The position numbers and the translations under genes were made by a program. From Magnetococcales bacterium (GTDB lineage: Bacteria; Pseudomonadota; Magnetococcia; Magnetococcales; JADGAP01): a DNA stretch of 44,540 nucleotides. The first letter of the stretch is position 1, and the number at the start of each line of letters is the position of its first letter. The DNA lies in contig JADGAP010000008.1 in the NCBI GenBank assembly GCA_015231965.1, positions 1 to 44,540 on the forward strand, given 5' to 3'. This document shows, piece by piece, positions 13,749-19,334 of the stretch. The notes beneath the pieces are model-generated. The model was not told where the DNA came from, made no database searches, and was given only the letters and a program-made list of their open reading frames with translations.

Positions 13749-14897
13749 TCAGATTCGTATGGGCATCAAACAGTAGGTGTAATATTGATCATCTGGATCG
13801 CCGATCAAGACTTGAGTTTCGTTGTCCTTCATCTTCAAACGAACGTTATCGCCACTCATCACTTTCAACACCTGCTTCAAATAGCGGGCGTTTAACCCAA
13901 TGGAGACAGGCTCGCCATTGTATATTGCTTCCAACGAATCCCTGGCGTTCCCATGTTCGGATTTTTTGGCGTCAAGGAAGATGGCGTTTTTCTCCACCTG
14001 CAACCGAATCCCACGGCTCAGCTTAGGCGAAAGCACCAGCATGCGCCGCACCGCCGCCAACAGGGCCGTCCGCTTGACGGTCACCGTCTTGTCGTTGCCG
14101 GTGGGAATCACTTTTTGGTAGTTCGGATACGCCCCTCCGATCAATTTGGCCATCAAGGTCAACTTGGGCTTCCGGAGGTTTCTCCAATCGTACATGGCGA
14201 ACATGATCCAGCTATCACCCAGCGATGTTCTCACAATGCCGATGGACTCCTCATCGAGCAGCCTCTTCACCTCCATAATCGCCTTGCGGGGGATGATCGC
14301 CTCGCGGATTTCGTCAATGGGGTTGGAGGAGAAATTCTTCGACACTGCGATGCGGTGAGCGTCGGTCGCCACAAAGCGCCGCTCCGTCTTGGAGGGAGCG
14401 AATTGCATCAACACCCCGCTGAGTATCTCGCGGGTTTGGTCTTTCGACGCGGCGAAGACGGTTTGGTTGATCATGCGAACCAGCGTCTCCTTTTTGTCAT
14501 AGGCGAAGGCTGGGCCGAGGACCGATGGAAAGTCGGGAAAATCGTCCGCCGACGCCGTCTCCAAATCAAATCGCGACCGACCGCAGGCGATGATCAACCG
14601 CCCCCCATCATCCAGTCGCAACTTGATCGTCTCCTGCTTTGGAAGCTTCTGCACAATATCGTGGAGGGTGCGCGCCGAAACGGTGGTGCGCCCTGGATCG
14701 GTCACCTTGGTATCGTCGTAATCATCTGAGGTTTTGACGTGCGAGACCAGATCGGTGGCAGAAATCGATAAGGCGCCGCTCTCGGAGGCATCCAGGAGAC
14801 AGTGGCCCAAAATCGGAGAGGGGGTGTGATTTTTCGCCACCCGCTTGATCCGATTGATCATCAAAAGCAATTGTTCCTGATTGATATCGACTTCCAT
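13749..14897 (-). CDS. dnaN: phage-encoded DNA polymerase III beta sliding clamp
   Basis: At 382 residues the length is that of a bacterial beta clamp, a ring that tethers the replicative polymerase to DNA. Recognisable segments in order are FDLETASADDFPDFPSV (end of domain 1), RFVATDAHRIAV (domain 2), LIGGAYPNYQKVIP, LNARYLKQVLKVMSGDNVRL and the C-terminal YCLMPIRI, equivalent to the YxxMPMRL end of host clamps. It lies within the phage early operon beside a GapR-like gene, far from any dnaA/recF context, so it is a phage copy. A clamp of its own would let the phage organise replication or recruit clamp-binding proteins. A start at ATG 14897 follows a GGAGACGAG tract. Confidence 0.9.
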   Translation of the reverse strand: MEVDINQEQLLLMINRIKRVAKNHTPSPILGHCLLDASESGALSISATDLVSHVKTSDDYDDTKVTDPGRTTVSARTLHDIVQKLPKQETIKLRLDDGGRLIIACGRSRFDLETASADDFPDFPSVLGPAFAYDKKETLVRMINQTVFAASKDQTREILSGVLMQFAPSKTERRFVATDAHRIAVSKNFSSNPIDEIREAIIPRKAIMEVKRLLDEESIGIVRTSLGDSWIMFAMYDWRNLRKPKLTLMAKLIGGAYPNYQKVIPTGNDKTVTVKRTALLAAVRRMLVLSPKLSRGIRLQVEKNAIFLDAKKSEHGNARDSLEAIYNGEPVSIGLNARYLKQVLKVMSGDNVRLKMKDNETQVLIGDPDDQYYTYCLMPIRI

Positions 14898-14910: not shown

Positions 14911-15213
14911 TCAAACCAGCATGCCCAGGGCGCGTTTGTAGAGATGGACCAGGGTCTCCTCCTCGTCCACCTCCCGTTGGTCCATCTTTCGCTGGCGGAT
15001 CACGATCCGCATCACCTTGGGGTCGAACCCCGCCGCCTTGGCCTCGGCGAACACATCCCGAATCAAGGTGGCGATTTCCAACTTCTCCTCCTCCAGTCGC
15101 TCAACCTTCTCGATGAACTGGCGCAACTGCTCCGCTTCGACGTTGAGTTCGGCTTCCGTTTTCTCCGTGCCGGGGAGCGGCTCCTGACGCATTTTTGGGG
15201 GATTGCGACTCAT
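14911..15213 (-). CDS. GapR-family DNA-binding protein (DUF2312)
   Basis: One hundred residues. The region LNVEAEQLRQFIEKVERLEE, then IATLIRDVFAEAKAAGFDP and KVMRIVIRQRKMD, matches the GapR/DUF2312 coiled-coil family; the end EEETLVHLYKRALGM is also conserved. Caulobacter GapR clamps overtwisted AT-rich DNA ahead of replication forks and transcription and assists topoisomerases. The start is set at 15213 because AAGGAG lies seven bases upstream; an in-frame ATG at 15234 is less well placed. Its position just before the phage dnaN suggests a role in phage DNA replication or chromatin. That link is inferred. Confidence 0.82.
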   Translation of the reverse strand: MSRNPPKMRQEPLPGTEKTEAELNVEAEQLRQFIEKVERLEEEKLEIATLIRDVFAEAKAAGFDPKVMRIVIRQRKMDQREVDEEETLVHLYKRALGMLV

Positions 15214-15584
15214 GGTTTGATCTCCTTCACCCATTCAATGGCGGGGTCCGGGGGGACCGATGGGGGGAGTCCGCCGTCGGCGGCCCACAGGATGCGCAGC
15301 ACCATCGCAAAGGCCCTGCTGCGCCATTTCCAGACGGTCGTTCCCACCTTCCCCAGGTTGGCCTCCTCCAGTTCCGCCAGCAGCATCGGAGCCTTGGCGA
15401 TAATCACGCGGCCAACCGGGTCGCAAAACAGGGTGACAAGACCGGAGCGATTTCCCAGCGTCACCACCCATCCGTAGGCGGAAAAGACCAGGTCATCCGG
15501 GAGACGGTTGGATTCCCCCGGATTGCGCCAGGGGATGAAATCCAGGACATTACAACCCCCGTAGGGTTCCAATGGTTCGCTCAT
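15210..15584 (-). CDS. phage protein of unknown function
   Basis: A 124-residue protein with a GAGG ribosome site seven bases before ATG 15584 and a four-base overlap with the GapR-like gene. It contains VFSAYGWVVTLGNRSGLVTL, a beta-rich segment, and a Trp-rich C-terminal helix (VWKWRSRAFAMVLRILWAAD). No membrane span or known motif is clear. Overlap with the downstream gene argues for co-expression. Confidence 0.5.
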   Translation of the reverse strand: MSEPLEPYGGCNVLDFIPWRNPGESNRLPDDLVFSAYGWVVTLGNRSGLVTLFCDPVGRVIIAKAPMLLAELEEANLGKVGTTVWKWRSRAFAMVLRILWAADGGLPPSVPPDPAIEWVKEIKP

Positions 15585-16194: not shown

Positions 16195-17115
16195 TCACCG
16201 CAGCAGGGATCTTCGTTGGTTCATGGCGTTTTCCCAGAGACGGACGGCGCGCTTGCCCGCGTCGGGGTCGGAGTCCTGGAGCCAGCGGCCGTAGCGCATC
16301 CGGATCATCCCCCAGTCCCGATGCCCCATTTGCTGGGCGACCCACATGGGGTTTTCTCCGGCGGACAGGAGCATCGAGGCGAAGGTATGGCGCGTGTGGT
16401 AGGGACTGCGGTAGCTGACCGAGGCGTTTTTCAAAAGTTGCCGCCACACCCGGCGGATCGGCGCGTCGGAAGTCCACGGGGCGCTGGTCTTGGGATCGTG
16501 GAACACCTCGCCGCGCATCAGCCGGGTGAAGGGCTCGATGAGCTTGAGGGCCTCCCGCGCCGGGGGGAGGAGGAGCAGACGGCGCTGTCCGGCGGCGGTT
16601 TTGGGATCGGAAATTTCTCCACGGGTCTTGGATCGACGGATGAAGATATATCCGGCCACCAGATCCACGTCCTCCCAGCGCAGGGCGATTTGCTCCCCCG
16701 TCCGGAGTCCGGTCCAGGCGGCGAACTGGAAGAATGCCTTGAGTCGCGGCTCCCAGGCGGCGGCTCCCAGCACCCGCTTCAATTCGTTTGCGGAGAGGGG
16801 TTCCGGCTCCTCCTTGATCACCTTCAGATTTCGGATTCTCCCGGCCAAGTCCCGGTCGATTTCCTCGTCGAGAAACGCCTCCTTCAAGACGGCTCGAAGG
16901 GGGATCAAAAGATTGTTGACGCGCTTGTTCCCGCACGTCAGACCGGCCACCCATTCGCGCACCATTCGGGGCGTGACCTGATCCAATGGCAGGCGCCCCA
17001 GCCCCGGCTTGATGCGACTTCGGATGGCGTTCTCGTAGTCCAACCAAGTGGACAACTTGACCTCGCGTTTTTTGCTGGCCAGCCAGATGTCCAGCCGTTC
17101 TCCCAACGTGTTCAT
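16195..17115 (-). CDS. int: tyrosine-recombinase integrase
   Basis: A 306-residue phage integrase that would cut and rejoin attP/attB. The N-terminal ~105 residues form a core-binding SAM-like domain (STWLDYENAIRSRIKPGLGR). The catalytic domain shows Arg138 (FAAWTGLRTGEQIALRW), Lys172 (DPKTAAGQRR), His240 and Arg242 (SPYHTRHTFASMLLSAG), His265 (QQMGHRDW) and Tyr275 (MRYGRWLQ), so every catalytic position is filled. An AGAGG tract lies a few bases before the ATG. The gene sits about 2.1 kb inside the inferred right end, separated from it by the replication gene, unlike phages whose int adjoins the attachment site. Confidence 0.9.
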   Translation of the reverse strand: MNTLGERLDIWLASKKREVKLSTWLDYENAIRSRIKPGLGRLPLDQVTPRMVREWVAGLTCGNKRVNNLLIPLRAVLKEAFLDEEIDRDLAGRIRNLKVIKEEPEPLSANELKRVLGAAAWEPRLKAFFQFAAWTGLRTGEQIALRWEDVDLVAGYIFIRRSKTRGEISDPKTAAGQRRLLLLPPAREALKLIEPFTRLMRGEVFHDPKTSAPWTSDAPIRRVWRQLLKNASVSYRSPYHTRHTFASMLLSAGENPMWVAQQMGHRDWGMIRMRYGRWLQDSDPDAGKRAVRLWENAMNQRRSLLR

Positions 17116-17409: not shown

Positions 17410-18687
17410 TCAGGAAAGGGGCGGGCTGGGGGGCGCGCTCGATGCCTGGGCTGCTCCTGGAGGTTTGTATTTCGAACGCAATAAGGCTCGTTGTCGCTCG
17501 ATGGTTTCCGGGTTCTTCCGAATGGGCGCCTCCTCTGCCTCCCTTGCCTTTCTGGCCCGTTCGGCGGTGGCGGCTTTAGCGGCATCTTCCCGGCGCTGTT
17601 TGACGCCGGGGGCCAGTTCCAGGATGAGGGTTCCCGCCTCCTGTTCGGCGCACAGCCGCCGCAGATAGCCGGGGGGATTGTCGATGGGCGGCTTGCCCTG
17701 CTCAAGTCGTCCCTGGAGTTCGTCCAGGATGTCTTGGGCAAAGTCGTGGGGAAATTTTCCGAGTCGCTTGGAGGCTTCCTTGCGGTCTCCTGGGTTGAAA
17801 GCATCGGGGAAAATCAGCGGCGGGGAGGTACTGGATGGAACGGGCGACGGGGAAGCGGCGGGGGAGGAGTGGGCCGTTGAGGCGTTGACGGCGGATGGGG
17901 ATTCCGTCGATTGGCTGACGGTGGGATGGGCCGTTGAGGAAACGACCGGGGTGAGGTTTTCCTGCTTTTCCAGATTTTCAAAATCACCACCACCACCACA
18001 ATTTGCGTCGAATTTCGGGTGAATTTCGGCGCGAAATTCGGGCGAAATTTGTTGTGGTTGTTGTTTTTTATTTATAGGGGGGTGTGGGGGGGGAATTTCG
18101 GGCGCATTTTGAAACGCATTTTGGGCCGAATTTTCCCCCAGAAATTGCAATTCAAATTCCTCCCAAATGGCCAATTCACGGTCGAAAGGGAGAATTTGAA
18201 GGTGATTTGGAGAGAGCCAAATCGTGATTTTCTGGCCCTTGGAATGGGAGCCGTCGGCCTGGAGTCCGTCCACCCCGAGGAGTTCCAGGGCATCCCAGGA
18301 CGTGAGCAGCTTGGCGAGGCATTTTGAGGAGGTTCCAAGCTCCGAGGCAAGCTCGTTGAGGCTGGTCTTCAAAACCGCCGAGCCCTCGACGAAACGATTC
18401 GCCTCATGGATGGCTTCGATGAGGCAGTGGCGAAGCCACCCCGCTTTGAGGCCGTACAGCTTGGTGAGACGCTTGATCCGGAGTTGCTTGCGGGCGCTTG
18501 TGGGGGATTGGAAGTAATGACACGCCGGGGCCTCTGGGGCCGGGCAGAAGACCGACAGCATCTCCCGGGCTTCCGGTGAACCATCGGGGGGTGTATCCAC
18601 TTTAGTTTTACGATTGTAGGCGCGTTTGGCTTGCGGCGGTGGATCTTGAATGGTCGCATGGGGGGGCTGTGGCGTAGCAGTAGTCAT
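17410..18687 (-). CDS. putative phage replication initiator with internal iteron-like repeats
   Basis: A 425-residue protein; ATG 18687 is preceded by AGGAG. After a disordered basic start comes a predicted winged-helix region (about 70-170), including LKTSLNELASELGTSSKCLA and KLLTSWDALELLGV. The middle (about 184-235) is low-complexity, rich in Pro, Gln and Asn, and is encoded by the AT-rich repeats at 18010-18135. The C-terminus has IDNPPGYLRRLCAEQEAGTL followed by a charged helix, a pattern common in phage and plasmid replication initiators. Being the first gene of the leftward operon and carrying origin-like repeats within its own sequence, it is organised like lambda O. Function is inferred; a transcriptional regulator is the main alternative. 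Confidence 0.6.
   Translation of the reverse strand: MTTATPQPPHATIQDPPPQAKRAYNRKTKVDTPPDGSPEAREMLSVFCPAPEAPACHYFQSPTSARKQLRIKRLTKLYGLKAGWLRHCLIEAIHEANRFVEGSAVLKTSLNELASELGTSSKCLAKLLTSWDALELLGVDGLQADGSHSKGQKITIWLSPNHLQILPFDRELAIWEEFELQFLGENSAQNAFQNAPEIPPPHPPINKKQQPQQISPEFRAEIHPKFDANCGGGGDFENLEKQENLTPVVSSTAHPTVSQSTESPSAVNASTAHSSPAASPSPVPSSTSPPLIFPDAFNPGDRKEASKRLGKFPHDFAQDILDELQGRLEQGKPPIDNPPGYLRRLCAEQEAGTLILELAPGVKQRREDAAKAATAERARKAREAEEAPIRKNPETIERQRALLRSKYKPPGAAQASSAPPSPPLS
18010..18135. repeat. iteron-like repeats within the replication gene (candidate phage origin)
   Basis: Copies of GAATTTCGGGTG-type words occur at 18010, 18021, 18033 (GAAATTCGGGCG), 18044 (GAAATTTG) and 18093 (GAATTTCGGGCG). 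Related CGCATTTTG words occur at 18103 and 18115, and GAATTTTC at 18128. Spacing within clusters is 11-13 bases, close to one helical turn. Between the clusters lies a T-rich tract (TTGTTTTTTATTTATA, 18061-18076) that could be the unwinding element. Iterons inside the initiator gene define the lambda origin; here the same role is inferred. Confidence 0.5.
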
Positions 18688-18767
18688 GTGGGCGCTCCTG
18701 GATGCTTCCCGCTTGGAGGGGTCTGAATCCTCGTAGGCGGTAATGTGGTACTACTGGAACCGGGAGA

Positions 18768-18926
18768 GGGTTCAGACCCACTCCAGGAAGTGACGGTCTC
18801 TTCGACCGATCCCCCCCCCGGTTCCATTGTCATCCATGGTTCCGAGAGGTCGCACCCGAGTTTGGACCCCGGAAACGACCGTCAGACTTTCATGGGTGAC
18901 GGTAAAAAGTCAATGCTGAAAATTCA
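18768..18926. repeat. long imperfect direct repeat, copy A
   Basis: Pairs with copy B at 18986-19144, offset about 218 bases. Shared landmarks in order: CGGTCTCTTCGACCG (a 5-bp stem with a TCTTC loop; A at 18793), a run of nine C, a GGTTCCAT/GGCTCCAT word, TTTGGACCCCGGAAACGACC (A at 18860), and AGTCAA followed by TGAAAATT near the right end. Read leftwards the AGTCAA word is TTGACT, a possible -35 element, but no good -10 follows. Confidence 0.75.
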
Positions 18927-18936
18927 CAAAAGAATC

Positions 18937-18956
18937 AGGGGCGGATTTTCCCGCCC
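18937..18956 (-). terminator. possible Rho-independent terminator between the direct repeats
   Basis: GGGGCGG (18937-18943) and CCGCCCC (18950-18956) form a seven-base-pair stem with an ATTTTC loop. Read on the minus strand it is followed by TGATTCTTTTG, a weak U-tract. It could end a short transcript starting in copy B. The imperfect U-run keeps confidence low. Confidence 0.35.
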
Positions 18957-18985
18957 CAACTTAGCTGGTGAAAAGGAGCCCGGGG

Positions 18986-19144
18986 GGGCTCAACCCCACC
19001 TCGGACAGTGGCCGGTCTCTTCGACCGATCCCCCCCCGGCTCCATGGTCACCCAGGAGTTCGGAAGGTCATCCCCGGGTTTGGACCCCGGAAACGACCAT
19101 CGGGCTTTTGGATGACGTCAAACAGTCAAGGTTGAAAATTGAAC
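18986..19144. repeat. long imperfect direct repeat, copy B
   Basis: Second copy of the repeat at 18768-18926 with the same order of landmarks: CGGTCTCTTCGACCG at 19012, a run of eight C, TTTGGACCCCGGAAACGACC at 19078, and AGTCAA at 19122. Differences are scattered substitutions and a one-base C-run change, while the hairpin and the 20-base block are unchanged. This suggests the structure or the binding sites are conserved, not a peptide. Confidence 0.75.
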
Positions 19145-19242
19145 CAAGCCGCTTGGAGAGGGCGCAAACCGCCTGTTTTCTCGCCCCCGGATGGTTTGTA
19201 ACAAGCGGTGGAACGCTTCTCGTAACCCATTGATTTTGGGTA

Positions 19243-19334
19243 GTGGCGGAGAGAGAGGGATTCGAACCCTCGGAACCCTTTAGGAGTTCACACGCTTTCC
19301 AGGCGTGCACCTTCGACCGCTCGGTCATCTCTCC
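19243..19334 (-). tRNA. tRNA-Ser (GGA)
   Basis: A complete class II tRNA on the minus strand: acceptor stem GGAGAGA/TCTCTCC, discriminator G and an encoded CCA. The anticodon loop is CTGGAAA (anticodon GGA), there is an extended variable arm, and the T loop is GTTCGAATC. Its 3' end points towards the prophage, the usual orientation when a tyrosine integrase inserts at a tRNA 3' end. Confidence 0.95.

Follow-up and report, generated by a model that had tools for sequence, protein, structure and literature searches.

Two structured direct repeats lie between an initiator-like gene and a tRNA-Ser gene on a contig of a Magnetococcales bacterium, raising the question of what they specify. According to an initial annotation, they could be an integrase arm-site array in the attachment region, tandem leaders regulating the initiator operon, or paired small RNAs such as incompatibility or immunity RNAs. 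To distinguish these possibilities, the repeats were analysed within the whole stretch of 44,540 nt, referred to as the window, and compared with related genomes. The features discussed below are collected in Table 1.

Two co-oriented repeats between an initiator-like gene and tRNA-Ser

A repeat search of the window revealed a 79-nt family with 80% identity and a spacing of 218, and an identical block of 25 nt, CGGTCTCTTCGACCGATCCCCCCCC, is found at 18794 and 19013 in the two copies. Both copies, c1 (about 18756-18913) and c2 (about 18975-19129), are approximately 160 nt long as originally proposed, although their limits are slightly wider. Global alignment of 18752-18920 with 18972-19139 gave 131 identical columns out of 174. 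The local alignment score was 142, compared to 25 for the best of 500 letter shuffles, and the agreement between c1 and c2 is therefore far beyond chance. The common hairpin, the C-run, the 20-base block and the TTGACT words attributed to the repeats were all recovered, and the GC hairpin separating them corresponds to a terminator-like hairpin of the minus strand. The copies are read on this strand, as are the tRNA, initiator and integrase genes. Minimum free energy (MFE) z-scores of the minus-strand copies were -4.6 and -3.6, whereas c2 read on the plus strand gave -2.5. The minus-strand reading, a third partial copy, and complementarity between the 3' part of c1 and the beginning of the gene that follows were absent from the initial annotation.

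In the whole genome (3.8 Mb), only three copies are present. The third, c3, is truncated to the 5' domain termed P1 and is located 3' of tRNA-Pro on another contig, where it adjoins an IS630-type transposase gene and no phage genes are seen nearby. Blast searches with the repeat against 61 genomes matched its own genome alone, and model R1, applied to 48 genomes of the order, detected only the genome's own copies and none in the 47 relatives. Weak R1 matches (L034-L037) were dismissed, being away from tRNAs and in sequence that looks coding. A search of 96 integrase or initiator loci with the same model yielded nothing apart from one match with an E value of 2.8. Exact repeat patterns gave no match in the genome_contigs and viral_contigs collections.

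A prophage occupies the left part of the window. Besides an integrase and tape-measure and tail proteins, it encodes a DNA polymerase III beta clamp, whose gene adjoins that of a GapR-like DNA-binding protein (13749-14897 and 14911-15234, minus strand). The phage initiator label given to the gene next to c1 appears plausible. Its product showed no Pfam or PHROG match, and no match was obtained in viral_contigs, phages and genome_contigs, but about 100 amino acids at its C-terminus match proteins in 8 other genomes among 60, and some of these proteins match O-like replication initiators or HTH_36. Repeated GAATTTCGGGCG-type words within the gene resemble an origin inside an O-type gene.

The sequence TCAATGGGTTA, searched as TCAATGGGTTANG, is found at only two places in the genome, immediately 3' of tRNA-Ser and of tmRNA, and related integrases likewise adjoin tRNA-Ser or tmRNA. 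Therefore, c1 and c2 probably belong to prophage DNA. In several relatives (L016-L022), tRNA-Ser is followed by what we take to be SRP RNA and dnaX. This order is broken in the genome analysed here, in which SRP RNA and dnaX are found on another contig (L024, C260). A second insertion in the same genome (L051, C177, 850-3414) consists of tmRNA, a leader, a relative of the initiator gene and an integrase with 79% identity. It is apparently small, and unusual 'GCGTCCTGCC' repeats follow its integrase.

Table 1. Features of the repeat region and neighbouring genes, in window coordinates
Feature	Position	Strand	Remarks
Tyrosine integrase gene	16195..17115	-	306 aa, without N-terminal arm-binding domain
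Initiator-like gene	17410..18687	-	425 aa; presumed target of c1
Repeated GAATTTCGGGCG-type words	17999..18133	+	within initiator gene; possible origin iterons
Target site b	18696..18702	-	TCCAGGA; overlaps Shine-Dalgarno AGGAG
Target site a	18719..18727	-	TTCAGACCC
c1 C4-like domain	18756..18825	-	70 nt; outer stem, hairpins A and B, unpaired linker (MFE and centroid); full-length RF01695 match of 17.4 bits, below cut-off
c1 a'	18771..18779	-	GGGTCTGAA; linker and edge of hairpin B; complementary to leader upstream of Shine-Dalgarno
c1 b'	18782..18788	-	TCCTGGA; loop of hairpin B; complementary to initiator Shine-Dalgarno
c1 hairpin A	18794..18808	-	CGGTC-GAAGA-GACCG; identical in c2
c1 P1 domain	18829..18900	-	long stem ending in CCGGG-GTCCAAA-CTCGG
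c1 TTGACT word	18908..18913	-	in conserved unpaired lead-in
Terminator-like GC hairpin	18938..18957	-	between c2 and c1
c2 C4-like domain	18975..19043	-	followed by TTTT; hairpin B and linker differ from c1
c2 P1 domain	19048..19116	-	
c2 TTGACT word	19124..19129	-	
Probable attachment-site flank	19221..19233	-	TCAATGGGTTA
tRNA-Ser (GGA)	19244..19334	-	probable integration site

A common fold and two complementary sites at two loci

A full copy consists of a TTGACT lead-in, the P1 domain, and a domain of 69-70 nt in which an outer stem encloses hairpins A and B together with a free linker. P1 is a long stem capped by CCGGG-GTCCAAA-CCCGG, its loop being the same in all three copies, while an A-U pair replaces a G-C pair in c3. 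The three-stem domain of c1 alone is predicted to fold very stably (-41.1). Domains of the same length and topology are present in c2 and in the leader of the tmRNA insertion; they start with GGA in c1 and c2 and with GGT at the tmRNA locus. Among the three, pairs 3, 4, 5 and 7 of the outer stem vary on both sides, pair 7 being broken in c2. A pair-shuffle test on three copies was not significant (112/500). The GAAGA loop of hairpin A and the AGTCA words of the region were presumed to be similar to lambda boxB and to lambda arm sites, respectively; both ideas were dropped. TTGACT was considered as part of a promoter and rejected, no good -10 hexamer being found at the right distance. A promoter search between tRNA-Ser and c1 gave no convincing candidate, the highest-ranking sigma-70 match falling on the tRNA itself.

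Comparison of c1 and c2 by part revealed that 32 of 34 residues are identical in the outer strand and hairpin A and 29 of 33 in the core of P1. The part of c1 that could act as antisense is the least alike, with 20 of 33. The copies also end differently: c2 in TTTT followed by the terminator-like hairpin, whereas c1 continues into the leader of the initiator gene.

It is this variable part of c1 that matches the start of the initiator gene in reverse. The hairpin B loop can pair over 7 nt with the initiator Shine-Dalgarno (site b), and the linker sequence GGGTCTGAA over 9 nt with TTCAGACCC further upstream. At the tmRNA locus, hairpin B (TCTCCGGT) pairs over 8 nt with ACCGGAGA at the Shine-Dalgarno of the initiator relative, and the linker TTCTCAA over 7 nt with TTGAGAA upstream of it. 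The sites thus follow each other in the same order at both loci, in the order needed for antiparallel pairing, but with other letters. Four non-cognate pairs were also tested, and no complementary stretch of at least 6 nt was found in them.

In shuffled leaders, two ordered sites of 7 nt were obtained 49 times out of 20,000 for c1 and 34 times out of 20,000 for the tmRNA locus. Among 168,444 stretches of real sequence with that geometry, 348 contained such a pair of sites, that of c1 included. These rates are optimistic because the sites had been noticed before they were tested. The duplex energy of c1 (-36.6) was reached by none of 1000 target shuffles and none of 1000 antisense shuffles. That of the tmRNA locus is not unusual, being reached by 138 and 215 of 1000 shuffles, respectively.

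For c2, no complementary site is present in the 100 nt downstream. A genome-wide pattern search for c2 targets gave five matches, compared to nine for a reversed control, and none was convincing. The best of them was rejected, since it is located at the end of a gene, presumably rplQ beside rpoA, and not at a start. c2 may have a second specificity or may be a decoy or a relic.

Comparison with C4 RNAs and other antisense systems

The phage immunity RNA C4 is about 77 nt long, has the icd/ant antirepressor gene as target, and is preceded by copies of its target sites (a1/b1). Its layout, in which an outer stem encloses a pair of hairpins and an unpaired linker, was recognized in c1, in c2 and at the tmRNA locus. 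Sequences matching the ribosome-binding site (b') and a site upstream of it (a') were found at c1 and the tmRNA locus, not at c2. As in phages P1 and P7, the C4-like domain of c1 is located just upstream of its presumed target on the same strand and begins with GGW. Unlike in P1 and P7, the next gene is O-like and not an antirepressor, a1/b1 copies are absent upstream of c1 and of the tmRNA-locus domain, the loop of hairpin A is not a tetraloop, and there is a tandem copy with another antisense part as well as a conserved 5' P1 hairpin. In the literature, C4 is described as occluding the ribosome-binding site by b' and gaining specificity by a', after processing by RNase P starting at GGW (PMC5320573). 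C4 RNAs and a 'c4-a1b1' motif have been catalogued in Proteobacteria and phages (PMC2864571).

By score, c1 is no member of the C4 family. The Rfam model RF01695 aligned to the c1 domain over its full length with an E value of 0.38-0.47, its 17.4 bits remaining below the cut-off of 45, and c2 and the tmRNA locus were not listed. Moreover, miRNA models of Rfam scored as well as, or above, the C4 model on the c1 stem.

C4 RNAs above the Rfam cut-off were detected at 10 loci in 7 of the 48 genomes of the order. In all ten, the linker pairs over 7 nt downstream. In nine, hairpin B pairs over 8-9 nt with the Shine-Dalgarno region, the exception being G037a, and a further copy of the a' site is present upstream at nine of the ten loci. 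One of these RNAs precedes an antirepressor gene (G032). Another is located upstream of a relative of the window's initiator on the same strand (G033), and a third is placed likewise upstream of a gene matching the G033 protein (G019). A model derived from the ten RNAs assigned c1 14.6 bits (E 0.4), which ranks it top within the window but only fifth of 55 matches in 62 kb. In one genome, three C4 RNAs are arranged in a row, about 700 nt apart (L150, L156 and L158; G028:C237, 13851-15365), and a viral contig (L075, 6194-6280) contains a C4 RNA above the cut-off, with 61.7 bits, near a related integrase. These comparisons, together with the two reverse matches to the start signal of the initiator gene, give good support to the view that c1 probably works like the C4 immunity RNAs of phages.

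The CI RNA of satellite phage P4 can be likened to c1 by its description. CI works by terminating transcription, with seqA and seqC lying on either side of the RNA; the sites complementary to c1 were found only downstream. Like the RNA proposed for c1, CI is described as antisense, produced from the leader of replication genes and shutting these genes off (PMC4825925).

Among Rfam families, the best match below threshold was sRNA-Xcc1 (RF02221), with 27.9 bits (E 0.003) for c2 and 22.6 bits for the tmRNA locus, both below the cut-off of 53. It has the same three-stem topology as C4 and the elements described here. sRNA-Xcc1 is linked to integrons and is not known to have a phage target. Clusters of it have been reported, as has its occurrence close to a C4 RNA in Xylella (PMC12189769). 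sRNA-Xcc1 could itself be a C4-type RNA. A further similarity concerns P1. The C4-like sRNAs of Group 1 in Acinetobacter baumannii are described with a conserved 5' stem-loop (Region 1) before the C4 core, and as several copies that differ in a' and have unknown targets (PMC5320573). P1 resembles this extra stem-loop, although the loop sequences differ and, unlike in Group 1, one copy, c1, matches the adjacent initiator.

A possible mode of action and its alternatives

From these data, we consider c1 a diverged C4-type immunity RNA that would repress the initiator directly, accompanied by a tandem duplicate with a changed antisense part. The probability of this reading is estimated at roughly two in three. 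The leader that precedes the initiator gene on the minus strand would be transcribed, and its transcript would contain the antisense RNA as the 3' half of c1; after release from the leader by processing, this RNA could act in trans. In its folded form, with hairpins A and B and the free linker enclosed by the outer stem, b' would cover the Shine-Dalgarno of the initiator gene, and a' would bind just upstream and confer specificity. Translation of the initiator, perhaps also transcription, would be blocked, so that the prophage would stay silent and be immune to phages of its kind. c2 would then be an orphan or an immunity RNA of different specificity, if not a relic. Two suggestions of the initial annotation, tandem operon leaders and immunity RNAs, thereby both gain support and apparently coincide in a C4-like antisense RNA located within the initiator leader.

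The complementary stretches could also serve within a single transcript, as a switch hiding the Shine-Dalgarno of the initiator gene, with c2 and c1 being tandem cis-regulators and no free RNA being made. In the MFE structure of c1 plus leader, the linker is indeed paired with the downstream site (-67.6 versus -58.7 for the C4 fold and the target apart), and a search for a separate promoter or terminator of c1 found none. However, the stability and C4 topology of the isolated 70-nt domain, and the use of the same geometry by the true C4 RNAs of relatives, make a purely cis-acting leader rather unlikely, the more so as published work portrays C4 as an RNA that is processed and acts in trans (PMC5320573). 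It is improbable that c1 and c2 are independent small RNAs, each with its own promoter, terminator and unknown targets, the match to the initiator being incidental. Each copy does have a terminator-like or GC-rich hairpin before it, TTTT closes c2, and the best Rfam match of c2 is sRNA-Xcc1, if below cut-off. Yet the two-site rule holds at two loci, the TTGACT words are not part of any well-fitting pair of promoter hexamers, and at c3 there is too little room for a promoter between terminator and P1.

Copies at unrelated chromosomal sites had been named as evidence for a dispersed element without a phage role. In part this was found, c3 being placed beside tRNA-Pro and an IS630-type gene. A MITE-like or REP-like repeat lying next to tRNAs by chance nevertheless seems very improbable considering the low copy number, the absence from 47 relatives, and the lack of terminal repeats or an own mobility gene in what was seen. 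Least credible is an array of arm-type or attachment sites acting at the DNA level. The repeats are located between the 3' end of the tRNA and the integrase gene, and AGTCA words are repeated here and beside the tmRNA insertion, but changes on both strands of stems and complementarity to a start codon region are signals of an RNA type, and the repeats form a folded, RNA-like unit upstream of a gene start. In addition, the integrase lacks an N-terminal arm-binding domain, because its core-binding domain starts at residue 3; the open reading frames of its three best full-length relatives comprise 389-405 amino acids.

If c1 is a C4-type RNA as preferred here, the tandem copies might even constitute a store of phage immunities, in which a constant scaffold (P1, outer stem, hairpin A) carries exchangeable antisense parts, c1 with the prophage's own specificity and c2 directed against the initiator of another phage, and C4, sRNA-Xcc1 and these elements might form one superfamily. 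We regard this extension as speculative and doubtful. In a limited literature search, no report of a C4-type RNA acting on an initiator was found, and for prophages of the order no work on phage immunity was evident in titles or abstracts.

The profile used to catalogue C4-type RNAs would miss c1. The rule applied here, pairing of hairpin B with the Shine-Dalgarno and of the linker with a site just upstream, detects function that sequence similarity does not reveal and at the same time assigns a target. If the interpretation is true, C4-type control would extend from antirepressors directly to a replication initiator, and c1 would form a bridge between the C4 systems of P1 and P7 and the CI system of P4.
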